Positions 2,481-17,996 of a stretch of 17,996 nucleotides of DNA are shown piece after piece. Within the stretch, counting starts at the first letter, position 1. Every line of letters starts with the position of its first letter. Source of the stretch: Clostridia bacterium (GTDB taxonomy: Bacteria > Bacillota_A > Clostridia > Christensenellales > Aristaeellaceae); contig JAFUPT010000060.1 in the NCBI GenBank assembly GCA_017481065.1, positions 1-17,996 of the forward strand, written 5' to 3'. The notes beneath the pieces are model-generated. The model was not told the origin of the DNA. It did no database searches and saw only the letters and a list, made by a program, of their open reading frames with translations. The position numbers and the translations under genes were made by a program.

Positions 2481-2613
2481 CTGGGGCGCTGCCCCAGACC
2501 CTGCTTAGGGGCTTTGACCCTAAGAATCCCGGATTCCCTTTGGCCCCCCTGCAAGCGATGCTTCGCATCGCAGAAAAATTAAAAAATCGATCTCGGAGCG
2601 AGATCGATTTTTT
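2481..2613 (+). repeat. Dispersed three-hairpin element, copy A (degenerate)
   Basis: Hairpin 1 is CTGGGGC-GCT-GCCCCAG (2481-2497). After the spacer ACCCTG comes hairpin 2, CTTAGGG/CCCTAAG (2504-2524), with a 7-nt loop ending TTGA. Extra short hairpins follow at 2524-2536 and 2555-2571, and then a terminator-like stem at 2581-2613. It starts 18 nt after the M16 stop codon, in the sense direction. The lead sequence GAGGAAACGCTGGGG is almost repeated in front of copy E. Copy A departs from the others in its hairpin 2 loop and in the extra stems. Confidence 0.7.
2581..2613. terminator. Intrinsic terminator, probably bidirectional
   Basis: AAAAAATCGATCTCG (2581-2595) and CGAGATCGATTTTTT (2599-2613) form a perfect 15-bp stem with a 3-nt loop, with six A before and six T after. 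It would end the M16 transcript. The same AAAAAATCGATC-type stem recurs at 10168-10200. Confidence 0.85.
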
Positions 2614-2690
2614 GTTGAACGAAGGAAAAATATAGATTTGTGGGCGCGCACACAGGTGCGCTCCTACGGGAAAAGCAAACTTTTATTTTC

Positions 2691-2717
2691 AAATCGTGCC
2701 GCTGTCCGGCACGATTT
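2691..2717. terminator. Terminator-like hairpin 3' of the dehydrogenase
   Basis: AAATCGTGCCG (2691-2701) and CGGCACGATTT (2707-2717) pair perfectly over 11 bp with loop CTGTC. It is the first strong stem downstream of the minus-strand dehydrogenase. The T-tract is poor on the minus strand (TTTGAAAATAAAAG), so termination efficiency is uncertain. The same CGTGCCG core with loop TTGTC occurs at 9598-9616. Confidence 0.6.
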
Positions 2718-2793
2718 GTTTTGCAGAGGTGCAGGGATGGAGTTCCTGCCGGTGTCCCCAGCGGCGCCCTGGCGTTCCCCCAGCGTACTTTTC

Positions 2794-3732
2794 TCAGTTT
2801 ACCACATTCACCGGCTTGCCTGCGATAAACGCGCGCGCGTTTTCCACGGCGATCGCCATCAGCCGGGTGCGGGCCTCATGGGTGGCCCAGGCGATGTGGG
2901 GCGTGAAGAACACCTTATCGCAGCCCAGCAGCGGATTATCTGCGGGGATGGGCTCCACGGTGGAAACATCCAGTCCTGCGGCATAGAGCTTGCCGGAATC
3001 CAGGGCGGCGCGCAGGTCCGCGTCGTTCACCACCGGGCCGCGGCTGGTGTTGATCAGGATGGCTCCATCCTTCATTTTTGCGATGGTTTCGCTGTTGATC
3101 AAGTTCTGGGTTTCTGGGAAGAGGGGACAGTGGAGGGAGATCACATCGCTCTGCCGCAGGAGTTCATCCAGGGAGACGCATTCCGGGTCCCGGGGCGTGC
3201 GGGTCCAGGCGAGCACATTCATGCCGAAGCAGCGGGCGATCTCGGCCACTTTCCTGCCGATGCGGCCGTAGCCCACGATGCCCATGGTTTTGCCTGCGAG
3301 CTCCATCAGCGGGAAATCCCAGAAGCAGAAATCCCGGCTGGCGGTCCAGCGCCCGGCGTGCACGGCATTGCTGTGGTGGCCGACCCGCTGGCAGATTTCC
3401 AGCAGCAGGGCAAACACCATCTGCGCCACGGAATCGGTGGAATATGCCGGGATGTTGGTCACAACGATGCCCAGCTCCTTTGCGGCGGCGGTATCCACCA
3501 CGTTGTAACCCGTGGCGAGCACGCCGATGTATTTCAAATTCTTTGCCCCGGCCATCAGCTCCCGGGTGAGCACGGTCTTGTTGGTGAGCGCCATATCCGC
3601 GCCCTCCAGCCGGGCGGCGGCGTCCGCAGGTGCGGTGCGCTCGTGCACGGTGAGCTCGCCCATCTCCGCAAAGGGGGTCCAGCTCAGGTCGCCGGGGTTG
3701 GCTGCGTATCCATCCAGAATCACGATTTTCAT
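2794..3732 (-). CDS. D-2-hydroxyacid dehydrogenase, glycerate dehydrogenase/hydroxypyruvate reductase type
   Basis: This 312-residue NAD(P)-dependent enzyme belongs to the D-isomer 2-hydroxyacid dehydrogenase family and most likely interconverts hydroxypyruvate and D-glycerate. The N-terminus MKIVILDGYAANPGDLSW is the form seen in glycerate dehydrogenases. The Rossmann nucleotide motif GYGRIG is at 154-159. The catalytic Arg231 (NTSRGP), Glu260 (STVEP) and His279 (TPHIAWAT) are all present, and HIAWATHEAR is typical of the glycerate dehydrogenase subgroup. The ATG at 3732 follows AAGGAGT with an 8-nt spacing. It diverges from the PHP phosphatase gene. Substrate assignment within this family is often wrong by sequence alone; a broader 2-hydroxyacid reductase is the alternative. 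Confidence 0.9.
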   Translation of the reverse strand: MKIVILDGYAANPGDLSWTPFAEMGELTVHERTAPADAAARLEGADMALTNKTVLTRELMAGAKNLKYIGVLATGYNVVDTAAAKELGIVVTNIPAYSTDSVAQMVFALLLEICQRVGHHSNAVHAGRWTASRDFCFWDFPLMELAGKTMGIVGYGRIGRKVAEIARCFGMNVLAWTRTPRDPECVSLDELLRQSDVISLHCPLFPETQNLINSETIAKMKDGAILINTSRGPVVNDADLRAALDSGKLYAAGLDVSTVEPIPADNPLLGCDKVFFTPHIAWATHEARTRLMAIAVENARAFIAGKPVNVVN

Positions 3733-3762
3733 AGGAAAAAACTCCTTTGCTTTGCTGCATCC

Positions 3763-3791
3763 ATTATAAATGAAAAACTCTCCCTGCGCAA
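3763..3791 (-). promoter_or_regulatory. Promoter of the dehydrogenase gene
   Basis: On the minus strand a perfect -10 TATAAT (plus-strand 3763-3768) lies 17 nt from TTGCGC (3786-3791), which matches only the first half of a -35. Transcription should start near 3756, just upstream of the AAGGAGT ribosome site. Confidence 0.55.
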
Positions 3792-3839
3792 GGAGGCGGA
3801 ACTCTACAAAAAATTAATCATGGAATCACTTTGTTGGGG

Positions 3840-3845
3840 TATAAT
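3840..3845 (+). promoter_or_regulatory. -10 element of the PHP phosphatase gene
   Basis: A perfect TATAAT lies 30 nt before the ATG at 3876. No convincing -35 box is visible 15-19 nt upstream, so this may be a weak or activator-dependent promoter. It faces away from the dehydrogenase promoter. Confidence 0.45.
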
Positions 3846-3875
3846 AGGTGCATACAGAGCAAACGAGGTGTTTTC

Positions 3876-4685
3876 ATGAACCGCCGCCCCCTGATCAATT
3901 ATCATTCCCACACCACCCGCTGCATGCATGCCCGCGGCGCCGAGGAGGAATATGTGCTCCGGGCCATCGAAGCGGGCTTTGATGTGCTGGGCTTTGCGGA
4001 TCATACCTGCTGGCCCTACAAGAGCGATTTCGTGGCGGATATGCGCATGCATATTTCCGAGCTGGACAACTACATTGCCACCATTCGCGGCCTGCAGGCG
4101 AAATACGCGGATAAAATCCGCATCCGCTGCGGCCTGGAGTGCGAGGCATTCCCGGAATTCTATCCCTGGCTGCGCCAGGTGAAGGCGGAGAAGGGCTTGG
4201 ATTATTTCATCCTCGGCAACCATTACGATACCAACGATGAAAATCGCGGCCCCTACTTCGGCCGGTGCGAAACCCCGGAGCGCGTGCGCCGCTATATGGA
4301 AACCACCATCGCCGGCATGCGGACGGGGCTCTTCCTCTACCTCGCCCATCCGGATCTCTTCCTCCACCGCTATCCCGTTTTCGATGAAACCTGCGAGGAG
4401 GCCAGCCGCGCCATCTGCGCCGCTGCGAAGGAGCTGGATATGCCCCTGGAATACAACCTGCTGGGCATGAAGCGCAACCCCGACAGCCGCAGGCGGGGAT
4501 TCATCGGCTACACCAGCGATGAATTCTGGAATATCGCCGCCGAAACCGGCAACCGCGCCATCGTTGGCGTGGACGCCCATGATCCCGAATCCCTGGACTG
4601 CGCAGCGCTGTACGAGCTTGCCCGCAAAAAGCTGGAAGACCTTGGCATTGAAGTTGTGGACGGCTTGGAGGATGCGCTGGGGTAA
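3876..4685 (+). CDS. PHP-domain histidinol-phosphatase-like phosphoesterase
   Basis: This 269-residue protein of the polymerase/histidinol phosphatase (PHP) family matches the size of HisK/HisJ-type histidinol phosphatases, which remove phosphate from histidinol phosphate in histidine synthesis using a trinuclear metal site. Metal-binding motifs visible are YHSHTTRC at 9-16 (H10, H12), GFADHT near 43-48, CGLECEAF, FILGNHYD, YLAHPDLF and GVDAHDPE. The start at 3876 is chosen because GAGGTG sits 5 nt before it. An upstream in-frame ATG at 3831 lies before the -10 box and is rejected. No other histidine genes are in view, so a different phosphoester substrate is possible. It faces the dehydrogenase gene across a 143-bp divergent promoter region. 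Confidence 0.87.
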   Translation: MNRRPLINYHSHTTRCMHARGAEEEYVLRAIEAGFDVLGFADHTCWPYKSDFVADMRMHISELDNYIATIRGLQAKYADKIRIRCGLECEAFPEFYPWLRQVKAEKGLDYFILGNHYDTNDENRGPYFGRCETPERVRRYMETTIAGMRTGLFLYLAHPDLFLHRYPVFDETCEEASRAICAAAKELDMPLEYNLLGMKRNPDSRRRGFIGYTSDEFWNIAAETGNRAIVGVDAHDPESLDCAALYELARKKLEDLGIEVVDGLEDALG

Positions 4686-4742
4686 TATTGGAATAGAGAA
4701 GGACTCGCAGGGCGGCGTGTATGGCCGGATGGGGTGTGCCCA

Positions 4743-4786
4743 AATAGAGAAGGGACGTTTTTTATGAAAAACGTCCCTTCTCTATT
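4743..4786. repeat. 20-bp perfect inverted repeat between convergent genes
   Basis: Two 20-nt arms (4743-4762 and 4767-4786) are fully complementary around the loop TATG. The sequence is GC-mixed at the base (AATAGAGAAGGGACG) with a T5/A5 block at the tip. It lies between the phosphatase (plus) and the membrane protein (minus). The T-run is at the apex rather than after the stem, so it does not look like a classical intrinsic terminator. A partial copy of the left arm, AATAGAGAAGGAC, occurs at 4691-4703. Confidence 0.8.
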
Positions 4787-4803
4787 CTGTTGAAATTCCT
4801 TGT

Positions 4804-5244
4804 TTAGAATCCCTTGGTGATTGCGATGACCACGAAATACACCACGATGCATACGCCCATGGTGATGGCCTCCACGATGCGGGCCTTGGGAATCTTGCGC
4901 AGGCCCTGCCTTTCGATGATATTGGGAATCAGCATGGCGATAGCGATGGCGATCACGAGGGTCCAGGTGAAGGCGGATTCATCCTCGTTCTTGCCGGTAT
5001 TCCAGAAGAGGGCCACGCAGGCGGCCACGCCCAGCACCACGCCGAGGATGCGCTGGTACAAATCCCATTTTTTATCATCCAGCTTGGCGATGAACTTCTG
5101 GAAGGAATTCATGTTGGAATCTGCCAGGATGCTGTCCTGCAGCTCATCTTCGCTCATTTCGGGATCGGGGTCGAAGCTGGCGTTGTATTCCTCAATTTCG
5201 GGCTCGCGGACTTCGAATTCGTTGTTATCGTGCTTTTCTGCCAT
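4804..5244 (-). CDS. Small membrane protein with acidic N-terminus, unknown function
   Basis: I do not recognise this 146-residue protein. The first 45 residues are hydrophilic and acidic (MAEKHDNNEFEVREPEIEE, then SFDPDPEMSEDELQDS). A short basic stretch follows (KFIAKLDDKKWDLYQR), and then three predicted membrane helices at about 66-82 (ILGVVLGVAACVALFW), 91-109 (FTWTLVIAIAIAMLIPNII) and 126-143 (ITMGVCIVVYFVVIAI). The ATG at 5244 has GGAGG 5 nt upstream. It begins 32 nt after the stop of the alarmone synthetase on the same strand, so the two are probably co-transcribed. The hypothesis that it links membrane state to (p)ppGpp is inference only. Confidence 0.85.
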   Translation of the reverse strand: MAEKHDNNEFEVREPEIEEYNASFDPDPEMSEDELQDSILADSNMNSFQKFIAKLDDKKWDLYQRILGVVLGVAACVALFWNTGKNEDESAFTWTLVIAIAIAMLIPNIIERQGLRKIPKARIVEAITMGVCIVVYFVVIAITKGF

Positions 5245-5276
5245 GGTAGCCTCCGTTGTTAGATAGTCTTACACTA

Positions 5277-5951
5277 TTATGCCTGAAAACCGGCTTCAGC
5301 GCAAGTGTTTTTTTCGGGTTCACCGTGGATTTCCCGATAGATATCCTGCATTTCCAAATCCAGCGCGGCGCTGGCCTCGGCGCACTTTTGCAGCCGGCGG
5401 CGCAGGCGGAGGGTGGTCTCCTGATCGGATTTGTATCTCAGCTGGTGCTCAAGGCTTGCCCAGAAATCCATGGCGATGGTGCGGATCTGCACCTCCACGG
5501 GCACCAGCTCCGTGTGGCTGGACAGGTATACCGGAATCCGTATCACCAGATGCAGGCTGCGGTAGCCGGATTCCTTCGGGCTCTGGATGTAATCCCTGCG
5601 GGCAACCAGCTCCACATCCCGCTGGCGGGTGAGCAGATCGGCCACATGGTAGATATCTTCTAAGTAATTGCACACGATGCGCACGCCTGCGATATCATTT
5701 AAATTCGCCTCGGCGGCCTCCAGGGTGGCGGGCAGGCCCTTGCGCTCCAGCTTCCCGGCGATGCTGGAAGGGGATTTCAGCCGGGAATCGATATGGTGGA
5801 TGGGGTTGCGGGCATAGCGCACCTTGAATTCAGAATCGAGCACCTCCAGCTTTGTGCGCACCTCGCGGATGGCGCTGTCGTAGAGCTGCACCATTTCGCG
5901 GTAGCGCTGCTGCAGCTCCTGGCCGGTGATCGTAACAATTGCATTTTCCAT
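5277..5951 (-). CDS. Small alarmone synthetase, RelA/SpoT synthetase domain (RelQ/YjbM-like)
   Basis: This 224-residue protein consists of a stand-alone ppGpp synthetase domain, without the hydrolase, TGS or ACT domains of long RelA/SpoT proteins. Such enzymes transfer pyrophosphate from ATP to GDP or GTP in the cytoplasm. Motifs in order are SRLKSPSSIAGKLERKG (56-72, ATP site), NDIAGVRIVCNYLEDIYHV (85-103), DYIQSPKESGYRSLHLVI (120-137, G-loop and guanine pocket) and VEVQIRTIAMDFWASLEHQ (152-170). The N-terminal helix and C-terminal helices fit the tetrameric RelQ type. The ATG at 5951 has GGAGG about 12 nt upstream, a long spacing that may keep expression low. It is followed at 32 nt by a membrane-protein gene and diverges from the two-component operon. 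Confidence 0.92.
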   Translation of the reverse strand: MENAIVTITGQELQQRYREMVQLYDSAIREVRTKLEVLDSEFKVRYARNPIHHIDSRLKSPSSIAGKLERKGLPATLEAAEANLNDIAGVRIVCNYLEDIYHVADLLTRQRDVELVARRDYIQSPKESGYRSLHLVIRIPVYLSSHTELVPVEVQIRTIAMDFWASLEHQLRYKSDQETTLRLRRRLQKCAEASAALDLEMQDIYREIHGEPEKNTCAEAGFQA

Positions 5952-6098
5952 GGTTTTATCTAGCCTCCGGATTTTATGTTATAATAAACTTATGAACTGT
6001 GTATAAACGAATGGGAAATAAAGCTGGGCATTTCTTCCAAGTACCAATATTTAGACGAAACCGGGTTCCCGATTCATATTCAATTCACATGCCCATGC

Positions 6099-6104
6099 TA
6101 CAAT
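6099..6104 (+). promoter_or_regulatory. Possible -10 of the two-component operon
   Basis: TACAAT (6099-6104) is 28 nt upstream of the preferred GTG start at 6132. No good -35 box is seen at 16-18 nt, so the call is weak. Confidence 0.3.
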
Positions 6105-6131
6105 AAAGCCAGATAAAATGAGGTGATTGCT

Positions 6132-6806
6132 GTGTTTCATATTCTTGTTGTAGAGGACAATGCAAATACGCGCAAGCTCATGCAGGCGGTGCTCAGCCAG
6201 AACGGCTATGAGCCGATTTTGGCCTGCGATGGCGAGGAAGCGCTGGAAATGCTGGACAGGAAGCATGTTGATTTGATCGTGCTGGATATCATGATGCCCC
6301 GCATGGACGGCTATGAGTTTACCGAAACCCTGCGCGCCTCCGGCTGCGAAATTCCCATCCTGATGGTCACTGCCAAGGAAAAGCCCGCCGACAAGCACAA
6401 GGGCTTCCAGATCGGCACGGATGATTACATGGTGAAGCCCGTGGACGAGGAAGAAATGCTGCTGCGCATCGCAGCCCTGCTGCGCCGGGCGAGGATTGTG
6501 AATGACCATAAGCTCGCCATCGGCGATACCGTGCTGGATTATGATTCCCTTACCGTAACCAGCGCCCTCGGCGTGATGGAGCTGCCGAAGAAGGAATTCA
6601 TGCTGCTCTTCAAGCTCCTTTCCTACCAGAACAAGATATTCACCCGCCGCCAGCTGATGGATGAAATCTGGGATATGGACAGCGAATCCGATGAGCGCAC
6701 CGTGGATGTGCACATCAACCGCCTGCGGGACCGCTTCCGCAGCAGCGCGGATTTTGAGATCGTGACCGTGCGCGGCCTCGGCTATAAGGCGGTGAAGCGG
6801 GGATGA
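6132..6806 (+). CDS. OmpR/PhoB-family response regulator
   Basis: This is a 224-residue two-component DNA-binding regulator. The receiver domain (1-115) has the acidic pair in VVEDN, the phospho-acceptor Asp52 in VLDIMMPRMDG, the switch Thr in MVTAKE and the Lys in MVKPVD. The C-terminal winged helix (about 128-224) ends with the family signature ERTVDVHINRLRDRF and GLGYKAV. I prefer the GTG at 6132 because AGGTGA (6121-6126) is spaced 5 nt from it. The GTG at 6123 lies within that site and lacks its own. The stop overlaps the kinase start in an ATGA, so the two are translationally coupled. The regulated genes are unknown; the MFS gene lies beyond a terminator. Confidence 0.94.
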   Translation: MFHILVVEDNANTRKLMQAVLSQNGYEPILACDGEEALEMLDRKHVDLIVLDIMMPRMDGYEFTETLRASGCEIPILMVTAKEKPADKHKGFQIGTDDYMVKPVDEEEMLLRIAALLRRARIVNDHKLAIGDTVLDYDSLTVTSALGVMELPKKEFMLLFKLLSYQNKIFTRRQLMDEIWDMDSESDERTVDVHINRLRDRFRSSADFEIVTVRGLGYKAVKRG

Positions 6807-7867
6807 AGCGCCGCAACGGAAGGCCCCGGAAGAAAAAGAGCATGTCGCTGGGCTGGCTGATGACGGCCTTCATCGTGGCCATATTGATCAATGCCGGCTT
6901 GATGACCAGCTCCTCCTATATCATCATGAACCGCACCGGCATCATGGAGCCGCTGCAGCGCTCGGCCTATTGGCCGCTGTTCCTGGTGCTTTTGTGCATC
7001 CTGTTTGCGCTGCTGCTTACGCTGGGCTTCGGTCGGCAGCAGATTCGCCCCATTCACCGGGTGATCAAGGCCATGAAGCGGGTCTCCCAGGGGGATTTCA
7101 GCGCCCGCGTGCCGGAGGACGACTGCGTGGGCGAGATGCAGGAGCTATCCTCCAGCTACAACCACATGGCCGAGGAGCTGAGCGGCATCGAAATGTTCCG
7201 CACGGACTTCATCAACAACTTCAGCCATGAATTCAAAACCCCCATCGTATCCATCCGCGGCTTTGCCAAGCAGCTGGAGAGGGAGGACATCACCGATGAA
7301 CAGCGCCGGGAATACACCCGCATTATTGTGAAGGAATCGGAGCGGCTGGCGAATATGAGCGCCAATGTGCTGCTGCTCACCAAGCTGGAAAACCAGCAGA
7401 TCATCAGCAACAAGGAAAAATACCCGCTGGACGAGCAGATTCGCAATTGCATACTGCTGATGGAAAAGCAGTGGGAGGACAAGGGCCTGGACCTCCGGCT
7501 GGAGCTCGATCCCCTGATTTATGAGGGCGATGAGGAGATGATGAGCCATGTTTGGGTGAACCTGCTCAGCAACGCCATTAAGTTTTCCCCCGAGGGCGGC
7601 GAGCTGGGGGTGAGCTGCATGCGGGTGCAGAACTACATCGAAGTGCAGGTTTCCGACCAGGGCGAGGGCATGGATGAGCTCACACGCCTGCGGGTTTTTG
7701 AGAAGTTTTACCAGGGAGACAGCGCCCATGCCACCGAGGGCAACGGCCTTGGCCTCCCGCTGGTGAAGCGCATTGTGGACCTCTGCGGCGGTAAGGTTGC
7801 CGTGCAGAGCGCGCCCGGGCAGGGAACCACATTTTCCATCTACCTGCCGATTGAGGAGGAAATATAA
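6803..7867 (+). CDS. Membrane sensor histidine kinase
   Basis: This 354-residue kinase should phosphorylate the adjacent regulator. It has a basic N-terminus, a first membrane helix (about 16-42), only a dozen residues outside, a second helix (about 55-76), a HAMP linker (77-128), and a DHp helix with H142 in NFSHEFKTPIVSIRGF. The ATP-binding domain has the N-box WVNLLSNAIKFSPEGG (251-266), the G1 box VSDQGEGMD (283-291), the F box FEKFYQGDSAH and the G2 box GNGLGLPLVKRIV. With so short an external loop it lacks an extracellular sensor domain. It thus resembles intramembrane-sensing kinases, which often take signals from a membrane partner; none is encoded beside it unless the MFS protein serves. 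Confidence 0.94.
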   Translation: MKRRNGRPRKKKSMSLGWLMTAFIVAILINAGLMTSSSYIIMNRTGIMEPLQRSAYWPLFLVLLCILFALLLTLGFGRQQIRPIHRVIKAMKRVSQGDFSARVPEDDCVGEMQELSSSYNHMAEELSGIEMFRTDFINNFSHEFKTPIVSIRGFAKQLEREDITDEQRREYTRIIVKESERLANMSANVLLLTKLENQQIISNKEKYPLDEQIRNCILLMEKQWEDKGLDLRLELDPLIYEGDEEMMSHVWVNLLSNAIKFSPEGGELGVSCMRVQNYIEVQVSDQGEGMDELTRLRVFEKFYQGDSAHATEGNGLGLPLVKRIVDLCGGKVAVQSAPGQGTTFSIYLPIEEEI

Positions 7868-7907
7868 TTTACAGTGAAGAAGGCGTCGCTTTGGAGGATG
7901 GCAGATG

Positions 7908-7943
7908 CGGCCTGCGGGAGAGATCCCCGCGGGCCGTTTTTTT
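7908..7943 (+). terminator. Intrinsic terminator of the two-component operon
   Basis: CGGCCTGCGGG (7908-7918) pairs with CCCGCGGGCCG (7926-7936) over 11 bp with one G-T pair and a 7-nt loop, and is followed directly by seven T. It lies 40 nt after the kinase stop. Confidence 0.9.
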
Positions 7944-8035
7944 ACGGAGAATCCGCGTTTATCCGGATGCAGGAAAAACGGCGTTTGCATCGAATATTTC
8001 CTTATATTGCGCATGCGCCCCGGCGGCAAAAAATG

Positions 8036-8064
8036 CTGAAAACTTATGATTCGGGGCGTATATT
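8036..8064 (+). promoter_or_regulatory. Candidate sigma-A promoter of the MFS gene
   Basis: CTGAAA (8036-8041) and TATATT (8059-8064) are separated by 17 nt, matching consensus at four and five of six positions. The site lies after the strong terminator at 7908-7943, so the MFS gene needs its own promoter. Confidence 0.45.
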
Positions 8065-8090
8065 GAGCATATATTGGAGGTATATTTCCC

Positions 8091-9269
8091 ATGCACGATA
8101 AGTACAATCGCACGATACTAACCTGCTTTATTGGTTCAAGCGTGCAGGCGGTTGTGATCAATTTCGCGCCGCTGCTCTACCTTACATTCCACAATACATA
8201 CGGCATCCCGCTGCAGAAGATCACCCTGCTGGTGACCTTCAATTTTCTGCTGCAGCTCTGCGTCGATGCGGCTTCCGTAGGCTTCATCGATCGCATCGGC
8301 TACCGCGCCGGCGCGGTGCTGGCCCATGCCTTTGCCGGCCTCGGCCTCATCCTGATGGCGCTTTTGCCGGACAGGATGGCCGATCCCTACACCGGCCTCC
8401 TGATCGCCACCATCGTATATTCCGTGGGCAGCGGCCTGCTGGAAGTGCTCATCAGCCCCATTATGGAAGCCTGCCCCACCAGGAACAAGGATAAGGCCAT
8501 GAGCCTGCTGCATTCCTTCTATTGCTGGGGACACACCGCCGTGGTGCTGCTCAGCACGCTCTTTTTCGTGGCCTTCGGCGTGGAGAATTGGAAGATACTC
8601 ACCCTGATCTGGGCGGTTGTGCCGCTGGTAAACATGGTCAGCTTCACCCGGGTGCCCATCGCACCGCTGATCAAGGAGGGCGAAAAGGGCATGTCCATTG
8701 CCGAGCTGGCCAAGAGCAGGCTGTTTTGGCTGATGCTGGTATTGATGATCTGCGGCGGCGCTGCCGAGCAGTCGGTGAGCCAGTGGGCCTCCGCGCTGGC
8801 GGAGAAGGGTCTCGGCGTGAGCAAAACCCTGGGCGACCTGATGGGCCCGATGTTCTTCGCCATCACCATGGGCCTCTCCCGCGTGCTCTACGGCAAGAAG
8901 GGCGATAAGCTGCCGCTGGAGAAGTTCATGCTCGGCTGCTGCCTGCTTTGCATCGCCTCCTACCTGATGATCAGCCTCACGCCCTGGCCCATCGTGGGCC
9001 TGATCGGCTGCGGCGTCTGCGGCTTTTCCGTGGGAATCTTCTGGCCCGGCACCCTCAGCCTCGCCTCCGCAGCCATGCGCCGCGGCGGCACCGCCATGTT
9101 CTGCCTGCTGGCGCTGGCGGGCGACCTCGGCTGCTCCCTCGGCCCCACCGTGGCCGGCATGGTTTCCGGCGCGGCCGGCGACAACATGAAGCTGGGCATA
9201 CTCGCCGCCATCGTGTTCCCGCTGGTGCTGCTGGCGGGCTTGCTGGCGAAGCGGCGCGGGAAGGCGTAG
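8091..9269 (+). CDS. Major facilitator superfamily transporter
   Basis: This 392-residue integral membrane protein has about twelve hydrophobic helices in two halves, split by a hydrophilic loop near 195-215 (RVPIAPLIKEGEKGMSIAEL). An MFS motif-A-like loop, GFIDRIGYRAGA, follows the second helix (about residues 64-75). The pattern ISPIMEACPTRNKDKAMSLLHSFYCWGH, seen around 122-150, and GGAAEQSVSQWAS near 218-230, resemble the FHS (fucose permease-like) branch, so a sugar or similar small solute is possible, but the substrate is not readable. GGAGG stands 10 nt before the ATG at 8091. A copy of the dispersed hairpin element starts on the base after its stop codon. Confidence 0.9.
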   Translation: MHDKYNRTILTCFIGSSVQAVVINFAPLLYLTFHNTYGIPLQKITLLVTFNFLLQLCVDAASVGFIDRIGYRAGAVLAHAFAGLGLILMALLPDRMADPYTGLLIATIVYSVGSGLLEVLISPIMEACPTRNKDKAMSLLHSFYCWGHTAVVLLSTLFFVAFGVENWKILTLIWAVVPLVNMVSFTRVPIAPLIKEGEKGMSIAELAKSRLFWLMLVLMICGGAAEQSVSQWASALAEKGLGVSKTLGDLMGPMFFAITMGLSRVLYGKKGDKLPLEKFMLGCCLLCIASYLMISLTPWPIVGLIGCGVCGFSVGIFWPGTLSLASAAMRRGGTAMFCLLALAGDLGCSLGPTVAGMVSGAAGDNMKLGILAAIVFPLVLLAGLLAKRRGKA

Positions 9270-9377
9270 CCAGAGGACGCTGTCCTCTGGACTCCTGCTG
9301 GGGCGCTGCCCCAGACCCCGCCAAAGGGGATGATCCCCTTTGGAAACCTCAGAAAAAGGCACGCATTGCGTGCCTTT
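9270..9377 (+). repeat. Dispersed three-hairpin element, copy B (with doubled hairpin 1)
   Basis: The element begins on the base after the MFS stop. Hairpin 1 is present twice: CCAGAGGAC-GCT-GTCCTCTGG (9270-9290) and CTGGGGC-GCT-GCCCCAG (9298-9314). After the spacer ACCCCG comes hairpin 2, CCAAAGGGGA/TCCCCTTTGG with loop TGA (9321-9343). After the spacer AAACCTCAGAA comes hairpin 3, AAAGGCACGC/GCGTGCCTTT (9355-9377). Hairpin 2 is the exact reverse complement of that in copy E. Confidence 0.85.
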
Positions 9378-9384
9378 GGGTTTT
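9355..9384 (+). terminator. Intrinsic terminator of the MFS gene (hairpin 3 of copy B)
   Basis: AAAGGCACGC (9355-9364) and GCGTGCCTTT (9368-9377) pair perfectly over 10 bp with loop ATT, followed by GGGTTTT. The T-tract is interrupted by three G, so efficiency is uncertain. Confidence 0.6.
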
Positions 9385-9590
9385 ATGGAAAAGGAGCAAG
9401 GGCTCCCCTGTGCAAAGTCGGCTGCCCCACACTTTCAGTGTGTTGTAACTTCGTGGCGGCTTGTGGGCAAGCCGCCCTACGGATTTTCTCTCAATCGATA
9501 CAGATTGCAAATCGGATATTCCCTTTGCGGGCGATCACACAGCCGGCAGGGCCGGCGGCCATAATTTGCGCACCCTATAATTCTCCCCAC

Positions 9591-9621
9591 AAAAAAACGT
9601 GCCGTTGTCCGGCACGATTTT
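9591..9621 (-). terminator. Intrinsic terminator of the unknown gene 9665-10138
   Basis: On the minus strand CGTGCCG (9610-9616) pairs with CGGCACG (9598-9604) over 7 bp with a 5-nt loop and is followed by seven T. It stands about 50 nt past the stop of the minus-strand gene. The plus strand also has ATTTTTATT after the stem, so it may work both ways. Its core is shared with 2691-2717. Confidence 0.8.
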
Positions 9622-9664
9622 TATTCGGAGGGGCAGGGGGCGGCACTCTAGCATTGCTTCTTCC

Positions 9665-10138
9665 TTAAAACACAATTTGCGGTTCTTCTAGCTCGTTATC
9701 CGAAACGGAAAATATGCGGTAGTTTTCATCTTCCCAGGGTTCAGTGGCTTCCTGGAAGTGCATGCGAATGCATTCAAGAACGTAACCGCCTTCAAAACAA
9801 ATCCGCAGGTCAAGAGTGGGGGAGAACTCCACATGCGTTACGATTCTTCCCGCCAATTTGTCATTCAGCACGATGGTGCGCTGGTCAAAGAGGGTTGAAC
9901 CAATCTCGGGATCGTCCCAGCGAAAATCTTCCTCCGGAATACCGCAGCCCATGTCGTATATGTCATGAGAACTGAGCAGAATCTGCCCGCTTTCTACAAT
10001 GCGCAGGGGGCAGGATGCATGCAGGCGCGGCGCAGTGCTTGCGGAATGAAATGCAACCCAAACCATGTCCGCTGCACGGCCAATTTCTTCAAATGTAGCG
10101 CCCAGCAGCAACTCGCAAACACGCTCTACGATTTTCAT
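9665..10138 (-). CDS. Hypothetical protein, unrecognised family
   Basis: I do not recognise this 157-residue soluble protein. It starts with an amphipathic helix (MKIVERVCELLLGATFEEIGR) and continues with alternating beta-like segments: LRIVESGQILLSSHDIYD, TLFDQRTIVLNDKLAGRIVTHVEFS, LDLRICFEGGYVLECIRM. It ends with an acidic tail rich in W, E and D. The compact, strand-rich, acidic make-up recalls small immunity-type or DUF proteins, but that is only an impression. The ATG at 10138 is preferred because GGGAGG lies 4 nt upstream; the ATG at 10150 has no ribosome site. It lies on the same strand as potD, but the terminator stem of element copy C lies about 30 nt upstream of its start and no clear promoter fits between them. 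Confidence 0.75.
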   Translation of the reverse strand: MKIVERVCELLLGATFEEIGRAADMVWVAFHSASTAPRLHASCPLRIVESGQILLSSHDIYDMGCGIPEEDFRWDDPEIGSTLFDQRTIVLNDKLAGRIVTHVEFSPTLDLRICFEGGYVLECIRMHFQEATEPWEDENYRIFSVSDNELEEPQIVF

Positions 10139-10167
10139 AAAACCTCCCATTGTACAAGACCCATTCT

Positions 10168-10200
10168 AAAAAATCGATCCCGAAACGGGGTCGATTTTTT
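10168..10200 (-). terminator. Intrinsic terminator of the pot operon (hairpin 3 of copy C)
   Basis: On the plus strand AAAAAATCGATCCCG (10168-10182) pairs with CGGGGTCGATTTTTT (10186-10200) over 15 bp with one G-T pair and loop AAA. Read on the minus strand it ends in six T, about 80 nt after the potD stop. It is closely similar to the terminator at 2581-2613. Confidence 0.85.
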
Positions 10201-10263
10201 ATTCTGAGGGGTCCAGGGGGAATCATTCCCCCTGGCAGGGTTCCAAGGGACGGAGTCCCTTGG
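10168..10263 (-). repeat. Dispersed three-hairpin element, copy C
   Basis: Read on the minus strand, hairpin 1 is CCAAGGGAC/GTCCCTTGG with loop TCC (10243-10263). After the spacer AACCCTG comes hairpin 2, CCAGGGGGAA/TTCCCCCTGG with loop TGA (10213-10235). After the spacer ACCCCTCAGAAT comes the terminator hairpin 3 (10168-10200). It starts 19 nt past the potD stop in the sense direction. This is the only copy whose hairpin 1 loop is not GCT. Confidence 0.85.
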
Positions 10264-10282
10264 CCAGCGCCTCCCTCAGCGT

Positions 10283-11359
10283 TTATCGTGCCAGGCGCAC
10301 TTCCATCCACACGTTTTCGTAGAGGGACATGCAGTCGGCCACATCGTTGAAGTATTCGCAGCGCGCGACCACTTCGGGGGAGGGGTTGATGGTATCGGAT
10401 GCTGCATCCTCCTCGGAGAGGCCGTCCACAACGGACTGGATGGGGGAGCAGTAATAGATATATTCGAAGTTCATCTTGGCGATATCATCGCGGCACATGA
10501 AATCGATGAACTTGTGGGCGGCGTCCACATTCTTGGAGGACTTGGGGATAACCATGCTGTCCACCCAGATATTGGAGCCTTCCTCGGGAACGACATACTT
10601 CAGCTTGTCGTTCTTTTCGATGGCATACTGGGCGTCGCCGGAGTAAACCACGCCGATGGCGGCTTCGCCGCCGACCATCTTATCCTTGGTTTCATCCAGC
10701 AGGTAGCCGGATTCGATCTTCGCCTGCTTCTGGGCGACCAGCAGCTCCTTGGCGGCGTTGAGCTCGGCCTCATCGCGGGTATTCATGGAATAGCCCAGCT
10801 TCTTGAGGGCGAGGCCGATGGTATCGCGCATGGAGTTCATCATGATCACGTTGCCGGCGTAGCGCTCGTCAAAGAGGGCGTCCCAGCTGGTGATCTCTTC
10901 GGAAACCATCTCGGTGTTGTAGAGGATGCCGAGGGTGCCCCACATGTAGGGAACGGAATGTTTGTTCTCCGGATCGTAGCTGGGGTTTTTCAGGTTCTCC
11001 AGCACGTTGGCATAGTTGGGAACCTTGCTGAGGTCCAGCTCGGCGAGCAGATCGGCATTGATCAGGCGCTCGATCATGTATTCGGAGGGGAAGAGCACAT
11101 CGTAGGTGCCCGCGCCGGCCTCTACCTTGGTGTACATCTCCTCGTTGGTGGTGAAGTTTACATACTTCACCTCGATGCCGGTTTCTTCCTCAAACATATC
11201 GATGGCGGCCGGATCGATATAATCGTACCAGTTGAAGACCGTGATGGACTGGGTGGGCGCGGCGGTGGCCTCGTCGGCAGCCTTCTTATCACCGCCGCCG
11301 CAGCCGGCAAGCATGGTCATGGTGAGTACGAGGCACAGGAGCAGGGCGATCTTTTTCAT
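10283..11359 (-). CDS. potD: Spermidine/putrescine ABC transporter substrate-binding lipoprotein
   Basis: This 358-residue extracytoplasmic binding protein of the PotD/PotF family captures polyamines and delivers them to PotBC. MKKIALLLCLVLTMTMLAGC is a lipoprotein signal with lipobox LAGC and acylated Cys20. The mature part begins with a Gly/charged linker, then SITVFNWYDYIDPAAIDMFEEE, the typical PotD start, with YDVLFPSEYMIERL, VPYMWGTLGILYN and GVVYSGDAQYAI following as in the family. The ATG at 11359 has AAGGAGGAA 7 nt upstream. An in-frame ATG at 11467 would read through hairpin element D and is rejected. It is last in the operon, separated from potC by 248 bp that hold two hairpin elements, so it may be expressed at a different level from the permease genes. 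Confidence 0.96.
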   Translation of the reverse strand: MKKIALLLCLVLTMTMLAGCGGGDKKAADEATAAPTQSITVFNWYDYIDPAAIDMFEEETGIEVKYVNFTTNEEMYTKVEAGAGTYDVLFPSEYMIERLINADLLAELDLSKVPNYANVLENLKNPSYDPENKHSVPYMWGTLGILYNTEMVSEEITSWDALFDERYAGNVIMMNSMRDTIGLALKKLGYSMNTRDEAELNAAKELLVAQKQAKIESGYLLDETKDKMVGGEAAIGVVYSGDAQYAIEKNDKLKYVVPEEGSNIWVDSMVIPKSSKNVDAAHKFIDFMCRDDIAKMNFEYIYYCSPIQSVVDGLSEEDAASDTINPSPEVVARCEYFNDVADCMSLYENVWMEVRLAR

Positions 11360-11401
11360 GGTCGGATTCCTCCTTGGTGTGGGATGTGGGGAGAAGGACG
11401 G

Positions 11402-11486
11402 CCAAGGGGACGCTGTCCCCTTGGAACCCCTGCCAGGGGAAATGATTTCCCCTGGACCCCTCTCCATTGCGCTGTTTCACAGCGCA
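11402..11486 (+). repeat. Dispersed three-hairpin element, copy D (antisense to the operon)
   Basis: Hairpin 1 is CCAAGGGGAC-GCT-GTCCCCTTGG (11402-11424). After the spacer AACCCCTG comes hairpin 2, CCAGGGGAAA-TGA-TTTCCCCTGG (11433-11455). After the spacer ACCCCTCTCCAT comes hairpin 3, TGCGCTGT/ACAGCGCA (11468-11486). It has the full architecture but follows no plus-strand gene. It lies upstream of potD, pointing at copy E. Confidence 0.85.
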
Positions 11487-11512
11487 GTAGAATTATTTTA
11501 TATGTTATTTCT

Positions 11513-11593
11513 GCAACGCGCATCGTTGCTTACTGAGGTTTCCAAAGGGGATCATCCCCTTTGGCTGGGGGTCTGGGGGACAGCGTCCCCCAG
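11513..11593 (-). repeat. Dispersed three-hairpin element, copy E
   Basis: On the minus strand hairpin 1 is CTGGGGGAC-GCT-GTCCCCCAG (11573-11593). After the spacer ACCCCCAG comes hairpin 2, CCAAAGGGGA-TGA-TCCCCTTTGG (11542-11564). After the spacer AAACCTCAGTAA comes a short hairpin 3, GCAACG/CGTTGC (11513-11529). It starts 14 nt past the potC stop in the sense direction. No T-run follows hairpin 3, so it may be a processing or stability element rather than a terminator. Confidence 0.85.
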
Positions 11594-17455: not shown

Positions 17456-17996
17456 ATGGCGAATTCAAATTGGTGCAATGATACAGGCCGATTTGATTGC
17501 TGCCAGCGTCGAAATCAGCGTTTATGCCGATGCTGCGGGAATCAGATTGACAATTGTAATAATTTCGCCTGTTATGGCAATGCTTCTTGCGGCAATGACT
17601 ATTGCTGCTGCATTGGAATACCGGGACCCATGGGCCCTCGTGGCTTCACGGGCGAAACGGGTCCTGTAGGCCCACAGGGCCCCGCTGGTGCAACCGGTCC
17701 TGCCGGTCCGCAGGGTCCCGCTGGTGAAACAGGCCCCGCTGGTCCGCAGGGTCCCGTTGGTCCGCAGGGTCCCATTGGTGCAACCGGTCCTGCTGGTCCG
17801 CAGGGTCCCGCTGGCGAAACGGGTCCCGCCGGTCCGCAGGGTCCCACTGGCGAAACTGGTCCCGCAGGTCCGCAGGGTCCCGCTGGCGAAACTGGCCCCG
17901 CCGGTCCGCAGGGTCCCGTTGGTGAAACCGGCCCCGCAGGTCCGCAGGGTCCCGCTGGTGCGCAGGGTCCTGTTGGCGAAACTGGTCCCGCCGGTC
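17456..17996 (+). CDS. Collagen-like (G-X-Y)n protein with cysteine-rich head, 5' part
   Basis: The frame is open from the ATG at 17456 to the window edge (180 codons, no stop), so the gene is incomplete. AGGAGGAA is spaced 5-6 nt before the ATG. Residues 1-52 hold 12 cysteines, in pairs and a triplet (DCC, RCC, YCCC), mixed with Asn, Arg and Gly. From Gly54 the rest is uninterrupted G-X-Y, dominated by GPA, GPQ, GET and GPV, with a loose 12-residue unit [12 protein letters not shown]. There is no signal peptide or membrane helix in view. Bacterial proteins of this kind (for example BclA-type) form trimeric filaments on spores, and the Cys-rich head could crosslink to a coat. A sigma-K-like promoter upstream fits that role. 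A cell-surface or phage-tail collagen protein is the alternative. Confidence 0.88.

Follow-up and report, generated by a model that had tools for sequence, protein, structure and literature searches.

The stretch of DNA analysed here, referred to as the window, comprises the 17,996 nucleotides of contig JAFUPT010000060.1 from a Clostridia bacterium of the family Aristaeellaceae. It carries five copies of a palindromic, modular hairpin repeat, at 2481-2613, 9270-9377, 10168-10263, 11402-11486 and 11513-11593, and a copy was found at each of the five places given by an initial annotation made from the letters alone. The genes ahead of the sense copies are a putative M16-protease-like gene, a putative MFS-like gene, potD and potC; these names were given from the look of the proteins and, for potD, also from relatives, the best of which share 77% identity with the window protein. 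Four copies begin 0, 14, 18 and 19 nt after stop codons, and the gene calls of the window agree with these distances. The further claim that the copies always lie in the sense direction fails for the copy at 11402 (+) and for the family as a whole. That copy is antisense, lies between potC and potD with its position 42 nt ahead of the potD start, and forms with the copy at 11593 (-) an inverted pair, tail-to-tail across the potC-potD gap. The layout of three hairpins needs correcting in two details: copy 9270-9377 has four (9270-9290, 9298-9314, 9321-9343 and a terminator-like one at 9355-9377), and the second hairpin of copy 2481, at 2504-2524, is imperfect, with GGGG opposite CCC. Three of the five copies finish in a separate terminator-like hairpin.

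The spacers between the hairpins had been taken as conserved. They vary, and they do so by following the preceding stem as a mirror-image third strand. This link was first noticed in intergenic regions of one genome, G038 (genomes and loci are cited by our own G and L numbers), and was studied in a table of 294 distinct modules, 288 of them with a purine tract, to which only modules with a C-rich linker had been admitted. In these modules the 5' arm has the form NN-A(0-3)-purine tract. The linker mostly consists of A(1-3) followed by the complement of the tract in the same 5' to 3' order, and in such cases it is the mirror of the 3' arm. Tract AGAGG is accompanied by linker ACTCC, AGAGGG by ACTCCC, AGGAGG by ACCTCC, AAAGGG by AAACCC or AATCCC, AGAGAGGG by ACTCTCCC and AGAGGAGG by ACTCCTCC. 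In the window, the first module of copy 9270-9377, which adjoins the TAG stop of the MFS-like gene, has the mixed purine tract AGAGG and the mirror third strand ACTCC. The core triads of the window score 37/41 across ten modules, with the imperfect hairpin at 2504 unscored and an unrelated hairpin at 2555 excluded. The modules and terminal hairpins of the five copies, lettered A to E by position, are as follows.

Copy A, module 1: 2481-2503, plus strand; hairpin at 2481-2497 with linker ACCCTG, 18 nt past the stop of the M16-protease-like gene (1212-2462); triads 3/4.
Copy A, module 2: 2504-2524, plus strand; imperfect hairpin CTTAGGGG...CCCTAAG, then AATCCC.
Copy A, terminal hairpin: 2581-2613, plus strand; with a T-run, similar to an intrinsic terminator.
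Copy B, module 1: 9270-9297, plus strand; CCAGAGG...CCTCTGG with linker ACTCCTG; triads 4/4.
Copy B, module 2: 9298-9320, plus strand; CTGGGGCGCTGCCCCAG with linker ACCCCG; triads 4/4.
Copy B, module 3: 9321-9354, plus strand; CCAAAGGGG-ATGAT-CCCCTTTGG with linker AAACCTCAGAA; triads 3/4.
Copy B, terminal hairpin: 9355-9377, plus strand; followed by GGGTTTT, terminator-like.
Copy C, module 1: 10236-10263, minus strand; CCAAGGGACTCCGTCCCTTGG with linker AACCCTG, 19 nt past the potD stop; triads 3/3.
Copy C, module 2: 10206-10235, minus strand; CCAGGGGGAATGATTCCCCCTGG with linker ACCCCTC; triads 4/5.
Copy C, terminal hairpin: 10168-10201, minus strand; with a T-run, terminator-like by eye.
Copy D, module 1: 11402-11432, plus strand; CCAAGGGGACGCTGTCCCCTTGG with linker AACCCCTG, antisense to potD and potC; triads 4/4.
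Copy D, module 2: 11433-11462, plus strand; CCAGGGGAAATGATTTCCCCTGG with linker ACCCCTC; triads 4/4.
Copy E, module 1: 11565-11593, minus strand; CTGGGGGACGCTGTCCCCCAG with linker ACCCCCAG, 14 nt past the potC stop; triads 5/5.
Copy E, module 2: 11535-11564, minus strand; CCAAAGGGG-ATGAT-CCCCTTTGG with linker AAACCTC, tail-to-tail with copy D; triads 3/4.

The order in which the linker repeats the tract is informative because alternative Watson-Crick pairing or template switching would yield the direct order instead of the mirror order. Among the pre-filtered modules, 64 have mixed purine cores; 38 of them follow the mirror code (shuffled mean 12.4, maximum 19 in 2000 shuffles), whereas the direct code, that of a Watson-Crick competitor, is followed by 3, all of them the symmetric GGAGG. 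Many of the misses are GGAGGGG and GAAGGGG tracts with outer pairs counted in. When hairpins were taken unfiltered by linker, 286 asymmetric hairpin-flank cases, with both flanks counted, gave 43 mirror and 0 direct matches, and the mirror count reached a mean of 12.9 and a maximum of 22 in 1000 shuffles. A survey of 49 whole genomes, with G038 excluded since the rule was noticed there, found the mirror tail CTCC in 46 of 74 cases, the direct tail CCTC in 1 and other tails in 27; G224 (26/29 mirror) and G028 (15/17) are part of this survey, and a few of their loci were already in the module table. In pure G tracts, the length of the G-run correlates with that of the C-run of the linker (Spearman 0.785, n = 222). 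A base-by-base analysis was possible for 211 of the 288 modules with a purine tract, of which 170 have a full linker match (at most 99 in shuffles and at most 115 when linkers were shuffled within genomes). Opposite G the third strand has C in 792/838 positions, and opposite internal A it has T in 48, A in 2 and C in 1. The leading A's are also matched in the linker: A by A in 102/106 modules, AA by AA in 10/12, and AAA by AAA or AAT in 35/35. Hoogsteen recognition is what parallel complementarity to the purine tract of a duplex points to. Opposite A, T alone gives a valid triad in the pyrimidine motif; linker A opposite leading A and T opposite internal A are valid purine-motif triads on the complementary strand.

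The two arms of the stem change together as well, which makes the co-variation of the module a three-way one. A covariance model (R1) was built from 24 elements of relatives, leaving out the window, and its sole full-length matches with E < 0.01 in the window are the five copies, with E-values of 1.2e-12, 4.6e-12, 5.3e-10, 9.9e-10 and 6.1e-9. The RNA fold of 9267-9390 has z = -6.6, and 0/200 shuffles were equally good. The earlier statement that stems vary yet remain paired, with structure being conserved, is confirmed by Watson-Crick counts outside the seed motif that are far above shuffles: in 126 distinct contexts of seeds picked by sequence alone, the three positions adjoining the seed form Watson-Crick pairs in 109, 108 and 87 cases (shuffled means 39, 38 and 34), and pairing drops to chance farther out. 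In alignment A2 of 24 relatives' elements, 55/384 cells are two-sided changes and 0 are one-sided, with 99.0% of cells paired versus 86.8% in shuffles; the 126-context test is cleaner because the selection for A2 demanded paired inner stems. A MAFFT alignment of 70 elements had misaligned arms and was not used. Template switching during replication would make perfect palindromes without selection, and the linker would then be a slipped Watson-Crick repeat of the C-run, in keeping with the strand-symmetric mismatches, the absence of one-sided changes in A2 and the way in which C-run length tracks G-run length. The mixed tracts speak against it (mirror 43 versus direct 0 of 286, and 46 versus 1 of 74), and template switching should not make mirror copies because copying runs in antiparallel order. 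We consider it the least credible of all the explanations weighed here, close to negligible.

The non-Watson-Crick pairs bear on the question of DNA or RNA. At the N:N pair and outer pairs 1-3 there are 14 G-U and 23 A-C pairs, without G-U bias; when outer pair 3 is omitted the numbers are 6 and 9, the surplus of A-C coming mostly from that pair because many stems end there and flank composition takes over. One-mismatch hairpins around seeds, several of which are neighbouring hairpins and not modules, contain 8 G-U and 7 A-C among 19. A structured RNA would tolerate G-U over A-C, and neither count has this pattern, unlike the terminator-like hairpins of the same loci, with 18 G-U and 8 A-C among 34 (small numbers). 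The selection on RNA structure that had been proposed is thus not seen in the stems, which argues against a plain RNA hairpin function. The lack of G-U preference does fit a constraint on DNA, and also a triplex in DNA or RNA, because triads need Watson-Crick pairs. The copies match 0/4227 Rfam families at E <= 1; the five Rfam hits of the window all lie off the copies (two are tRNAs, one is a plastid model lying on a tRNA, and the other two are weak).

The copies keep away from genes and promoter regions, with a preference for the 3' ends of genes. Genes were called with a model seeded from the window plus five relatives, which placed potD on the right strand at 11/11 loci, five of them in the seed set. 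Earlier gene calls, which had given tandem counts of 17 versus 16 and 19 versus 22 and 18-20 copies "inside genes", were discarded for their wrong-strand open reading frames in high-GC genomes. The first sample consists of 119 merged chains recovered by the detector, which is fewer than all seeds. It omits L061 (the same site as L122), the loci re-fetched as larger regions (L081-L083, L092, L094, L095, L098, L100-L102, L108, L110 and L172-L174) and L084, L085, L097 and L099, which had earlier seemed intragenic; three of these last four do lie in genes, as chance-like single hairpins or no chain, and L085 is a true intergenic copy. The second sample comes from two genomes, G001 and G038, and used 43/45 model matches in one and 58/63 in the other, those of about 32 bits or more. 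Only 1/119 chains of the first sample lies inside a gene, and 0/95 of the second. In the first sample, tandem regions hold 42 sense and 18 antisense chains, 23 are in convergent and 4 in divergent regions, and the rest have no neighbour on one or both sides. Pooling both samples gives 86 sense versus 44 antisense copies in tandem intergenic regions (p = 0.0003) and 37 convergent versus 6 divergent (p = 2e-6).

Many copies hug the stop codon. Of the 75 copies of the first sample with an upstream sense gene, 48 begin at most 64 nt past the stop, 41 of them at -5 to 19 nt, and in both samples together 60/138 begin at most 12 nt past it (36/75 plus 24/63). Sense orientation close behind a stop accounts for at least half of the copies in 7/14 genomes. 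In G038 there are 33 sense and 11 antisense copies, and sense copies lie within 60 nt past the stop in 40/41 cases and within 90 nt in 41/41. Divergent regions of G038 hold 1 copy despite 29 such regions of at least 60 nt in the sample, convergent ones hold 7 among 11, and where a neighbour is read divergently, the distance from its start codon to the beginning of the copy is 28-111 nt. Stop-codon usage is the same beside G038 copies (23 TAA, 16 TGA, 1 TAG) as in other genes (148, 113 and 6). G001, which is among the two nearest relatives, shows no orientation bias (11 sense, 15 antisense), and 1/22 lies within 60 nt of a stop, the rest of a composite repeat preceding the chain there. The idea of a dispersed 3'-end module survives in part: the family is sense-biased overall and often close behind a stop, but this adjacency is weak in six genomes and the bias is absent in G001. 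The fractions of all copies that are in sense and at most 64 nt past a stop are, genome by genome, as follows.

Genomes with close adjacency: G011 7/8, G006 4/5, G182 9/12, G028 4/4, G012 8/16, window 4/5.
Genomes with weak adjacency: G039 1/21, G037 0/7, G024 0/10, G208 2/9, G224 1/5, G058 0/1.

The initial annotation read the element as a 3'-untranslated module. In one form of this view, the chain of hairpins directly past the stop would act as RNA and guard the upstream message from 3' exonucleases or meet the terminating ribosome. Such a role has reportedly been proposed for E. coli REPs lying within about 15 nt of stop codons. The sense bias, the preference for convergent over divergent regions, the 60/138 copies within 12 nt of the stop, six copies in intercistronic gaps and a separate terminator-like hairpin with a T-run (by eye) after the chain in at least two G012 copies all agree with it, whereas the stems without G-U preference, a linker in mirror order that it does not predict and the unbiased orientation in G001 do not. 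We regard this RNA module as unlikely, albeit as the most serious of the rivals.

A role in termination, also suggested for the element, is not borne out. TTTT is found within 12 nt past the last detected hairpin in 19/105 chains, so the U-tract of an intrinsic terminator is missing from most of them, and six copies of G011 and G006 occupy the interval from one gene to the next in the same direction, the stop lying -4 to 10 nt before the copy and the start codon 17-25 nt after it; by itself, therefore, the chain has little resemblance to a terminator. Intrinsic terminators made of clusters of hairpins have been described (PMC8355165), and the tandem stable hairpins soon past stops and the terminator-like end hairpin in three of the five window copies resemble them. 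In that study, 98% of confirmed terminator sites lie within 80 bases of a stop, and U-tracts are argued not to be always needed for termination. Besides the scarcity of TTTT and the intercistronic copies, E. coli PIT elements are without terminator activity according to work cited in PMC4666352. Unlike such clusters, the present family is a repeat with a sequence grammar and few T-runs, and also occurs between co-directional genes with the next start 17-25 nt away. We find termination by hairpin clusters very improbable. Other hairpins were seen alongside: in G018, G025, G026 and G029 a terminator-like hairpin AGAGG...CCTCT followed by CCATTTT recurs, repeated within some of them, and the window has at 4743-4786 a perfect hairpin with a 20-bp stem (AATAGAGAAGGGACGTTTTT...) between convergent genes, possibly a two-way terminator. 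A reading frame with collagen-like GPxGPx repeats lies near the window end (17599-17847).

The family is dispersed among relatives, with modules chained up to six hairpins in a row. The seed GGGNCGCTGNCCCN{2,7}ACCC has 145 matches in 19/41 relatives' genomes and 0 in the reversed-control reading (41/80 loci used), and it is found patchily, in 16/200 genomes, in the order of G012, with 3 control hits. Model R1 matches at E <= 0.01 in 22/30 genomes; with 150 candidates scored per genome, G001 has at least 146 matches, G038 at least 136 and G028 at least 87. A direct comparison of G006 with G011, in which the flanks agree at about 92-96% of positions, shows the element in both genomes at four sites, with a truncated copy at one of these in G006; at a fifth (L148) the matching G006 contig probably breaks at a seed. 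At L149/L165 G011 has two units and G006 one; therefore, units are gained or lost in tandem.

Several neighbouring structures were noted in these genomes. In G001 (L303-L322) the chain makes up the right half of a larger composite repeat, which is about 290 bp long, is present in both orientations and has further hairpins GCGGCCCGCGG...CCGCGGGCCGC plus a variable TTTTGATTTGG-type hairpin. Behind the chains of G038 (L323-L333) there are recurring GGGGTCACGGCGC...GCGCCGCGACGC hairpins and runs of short ATTCCGAATTCCGC-like repeats. Tandem arrays with a period of about 149-172 bp occur in intergenic regions at L141 and L146 (G037) and L131 (G012). Two G039 loci (L123:7305-7400 and L127:2487-2580) have a common structured insert of about 65 nt in the loop of the last hairpin, which gives the impression of an IS200/IS605-type end or a small mobile element.

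Outside these genomes, chains of this layout are present on a Desulfobaculum plasmid, there in sense and about 11 nt past an annotated stop codon, and on the phage-labelled human faecal contig MT837077.1 (L205). Similar chains reportedly exist in Desulfovibrionales and Rhodospirillales. The faecal contig is the one inspected of nine records matched by BLAST with a G038 chain (MT837077.1, MT839801.1 and seven others), mostly small unannotated human-faecal contigs deposited as phage and possibly bacterial DNA. A phage vehicle was considered and set aside, the viral contigs having too few matches for it (4 mirror-code, 2 direct-code). A G224 chain compared by BLAST with plasmids gave short matches only.

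These data also bear on a REP/MITE-like mobile repeat moved by a transposase, the position and orientation of which would come from target choice plus purifying selection. In its favour can be counted at least 137 copies in G001 and at least 119 in G038, copies at contig ends, inverted pairs in 4 G038 and 7 G001 regions, the composite of G001, the patchy presence of the seed and a Y1 transposase gene (PF01797) in G038 and G024, with a 22-position fragment in G001. PF01797 was matched in 15/45 genomes. It was unmatched in ten other carriers of the element (G011, G012, G028, G037, G039, G041, G058, G182, G208 and G224; these bins may be incomplete), therefore Y1 does not explain the spread generally. 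Moreover, the G001 composite is without terminal inverted repeats by eye, four element sites are common to G006 and G011, and empty sites sought for two G011 copies were not found, the second query being without an orthologue. Such a mobile repeat is in our view quite unlikely, more so than the RNA module.

We lean slightly, on the strength of the sequences, towards the view that the five copies are members of a dispersed repeat family, built of DNA modules and located at the ends of genes, structural repeats of the BoxC/PIT kind in which any RNA effect would be secondary at most. Each module is made of three domains that follow one another on the same strand: a purine tract in the 5' arm, its Watson-Crick complement in the 3' arm and a pyrimidine-rich linker with the mirror order of that complement. 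This is the order of an intrastrand triplex, which would be of class III (pyrimidine motif) on the transcript-like strand and of class I on its complement (purine motif, G.G-C with A.A-T or T.A-T). The palindrome, the linker rule, the three-way co-variation, the chaining, the dispersal and the preference for gene 3' ends are seen in the sequences themselves. Whenever the complementary strand is single, in replication or transcription, the modules would fold into triplex hairpins. The elements would work and persist as DNA, module number shifting by duplication and loss, and their tolerated niche would be the gene 3' flank, away from promoters, to which selection would confine them; an effect on polymerases or transcripts might follow. 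Given this triplex-like domain order, the family is best read as a putative new variant of the BoxC/PIT triplex-motif repeats, chained and hugging the stop codon.

The original paper on PIT (intrastrand triplex) elements is said to be that of Hoyne et al. 2000. The TMECO/BoxC motif of E. coli folds as an intrastrand triplex in vitro, with no in vivo triplex or clear function shown; G/C-rich motifs exist in many genomes, and TMECO is without strand bias and has been linked to genomic instability (Holder et al. 2015, PMC4666352). The present family is like BoxC/PIT/TMECO in being G/C-rich, multicopy and intergenic, in its three consecutive domains with triplex symmetry, in some inverted pairs and in its uneven copy number among relatives. 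It differs in its class I/III order, TMECO being class II with the third strand at the 3' end, in its sequence and in being chained with a third strand that co-varies with the stem. Inspection of module order and sequences, without a pattern search, did not reveal the TMECO/BoxC consensus CCCTCNCCC-N3-6-GGGNGAGGG-N3-GGGNGAGGG. TMECO lies more often upstream of open reading frames, at no fixed distance; the present family is often beside stops and sense-biased when pooled, G001 alone showing no strand bias. With REP/BIME and the stem-loop repeat families catalogued from 40 genomes (PMC2267715) it shares dispersed extragenic palindromes and inverted pairs; it differs in its near-perfect Watson-Crick stems and mirror linker, and no consistent Y1/RAYT transposase was seen with it. 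Like hairpin-cluster terminators, it places several hairpins close behind stops. Palindromic RNA candidates are mentioned in PMC8040213. The available parts of PMC4666352, PMC8355165, PMC2267715 and PMC8040213 do not name the family, and the core sequences were not found in the relevant open-access papers listed. The string "covari" is absent from the main text of PMC4666352, where no co-variation evidence was found for the E. coli motif, and the titles and abstract starts listed from open-access literature contain no report of three-way co-variation or of triplex repeats adjacent to stop codons.

Several points weigh against an intrastrand triplex. Arms without a leading A are nevertheless followed by a linker A in 41/58 modules. 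Linker shuffles within the own genome are exceeded in 3/13 groups only (G038, the window and the pooled others), the remaining groups having few or mostly pure tracts, and mixed tracts are concentrated in a few genomes (G038, G224, G028). Where the tract is pure G, the agreement in length is explained just as well by a slipped Watson-Crick hairpin, and only mixed tracts discriminate. The modules share descent, so that the counts are of non-independent events. In 398 genomes of the phylum of G012, AGAGGN{3,5}CCTCTNNAYYYY gave 3 mirror and 2 direct cases of 62, with no mirror excess, therefore the linker rule is seen only in this lineage. The C+ triads of the pyrimidine motif require acid conditions, and few nucleotides (GG, or TGGA with outer pairs open) are left for the turn that leads from the 3' arm into the third strand. 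For the E. coli motif, PMC4666352 reports no triplex signal in duplex DNA or by in vivo footprinting. Finally, the sense bias behind stops points to a role at the transcript level that a purely DNA-level reading leaves unexplained, and no other argument for an additional effect on transcripts is as strong. A G-quadruplex or i-motif, considered by reasoning, could use the matched G/C runs, but the mirror order of mixed tracts is best explained by purines associating in antiparallel fashion (Hoogsteen-type); a quadruplex of antiparallel strands that includes A layers is still conceivable.

The natural cellular roles of triplexes are an old open question. A third strand that changes together with its duplex, across several types of purine tract, is a kind of evolutionary evidence that was not found for the E. 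coli motif, and the question becomes testable here, the hairpin and the third strand being separately mutable and the position at the stop codon offering a defined place to look for a phenotype. We would put forward, tentatively and with clearly less confidence than the main reading, that evolution may maintain natural intrastrand triplexes, and that the chains behind stops may act as a genome-wide gene-end device, be it a polymerase barrier, a supercoil sink or a guard of the transcript end.

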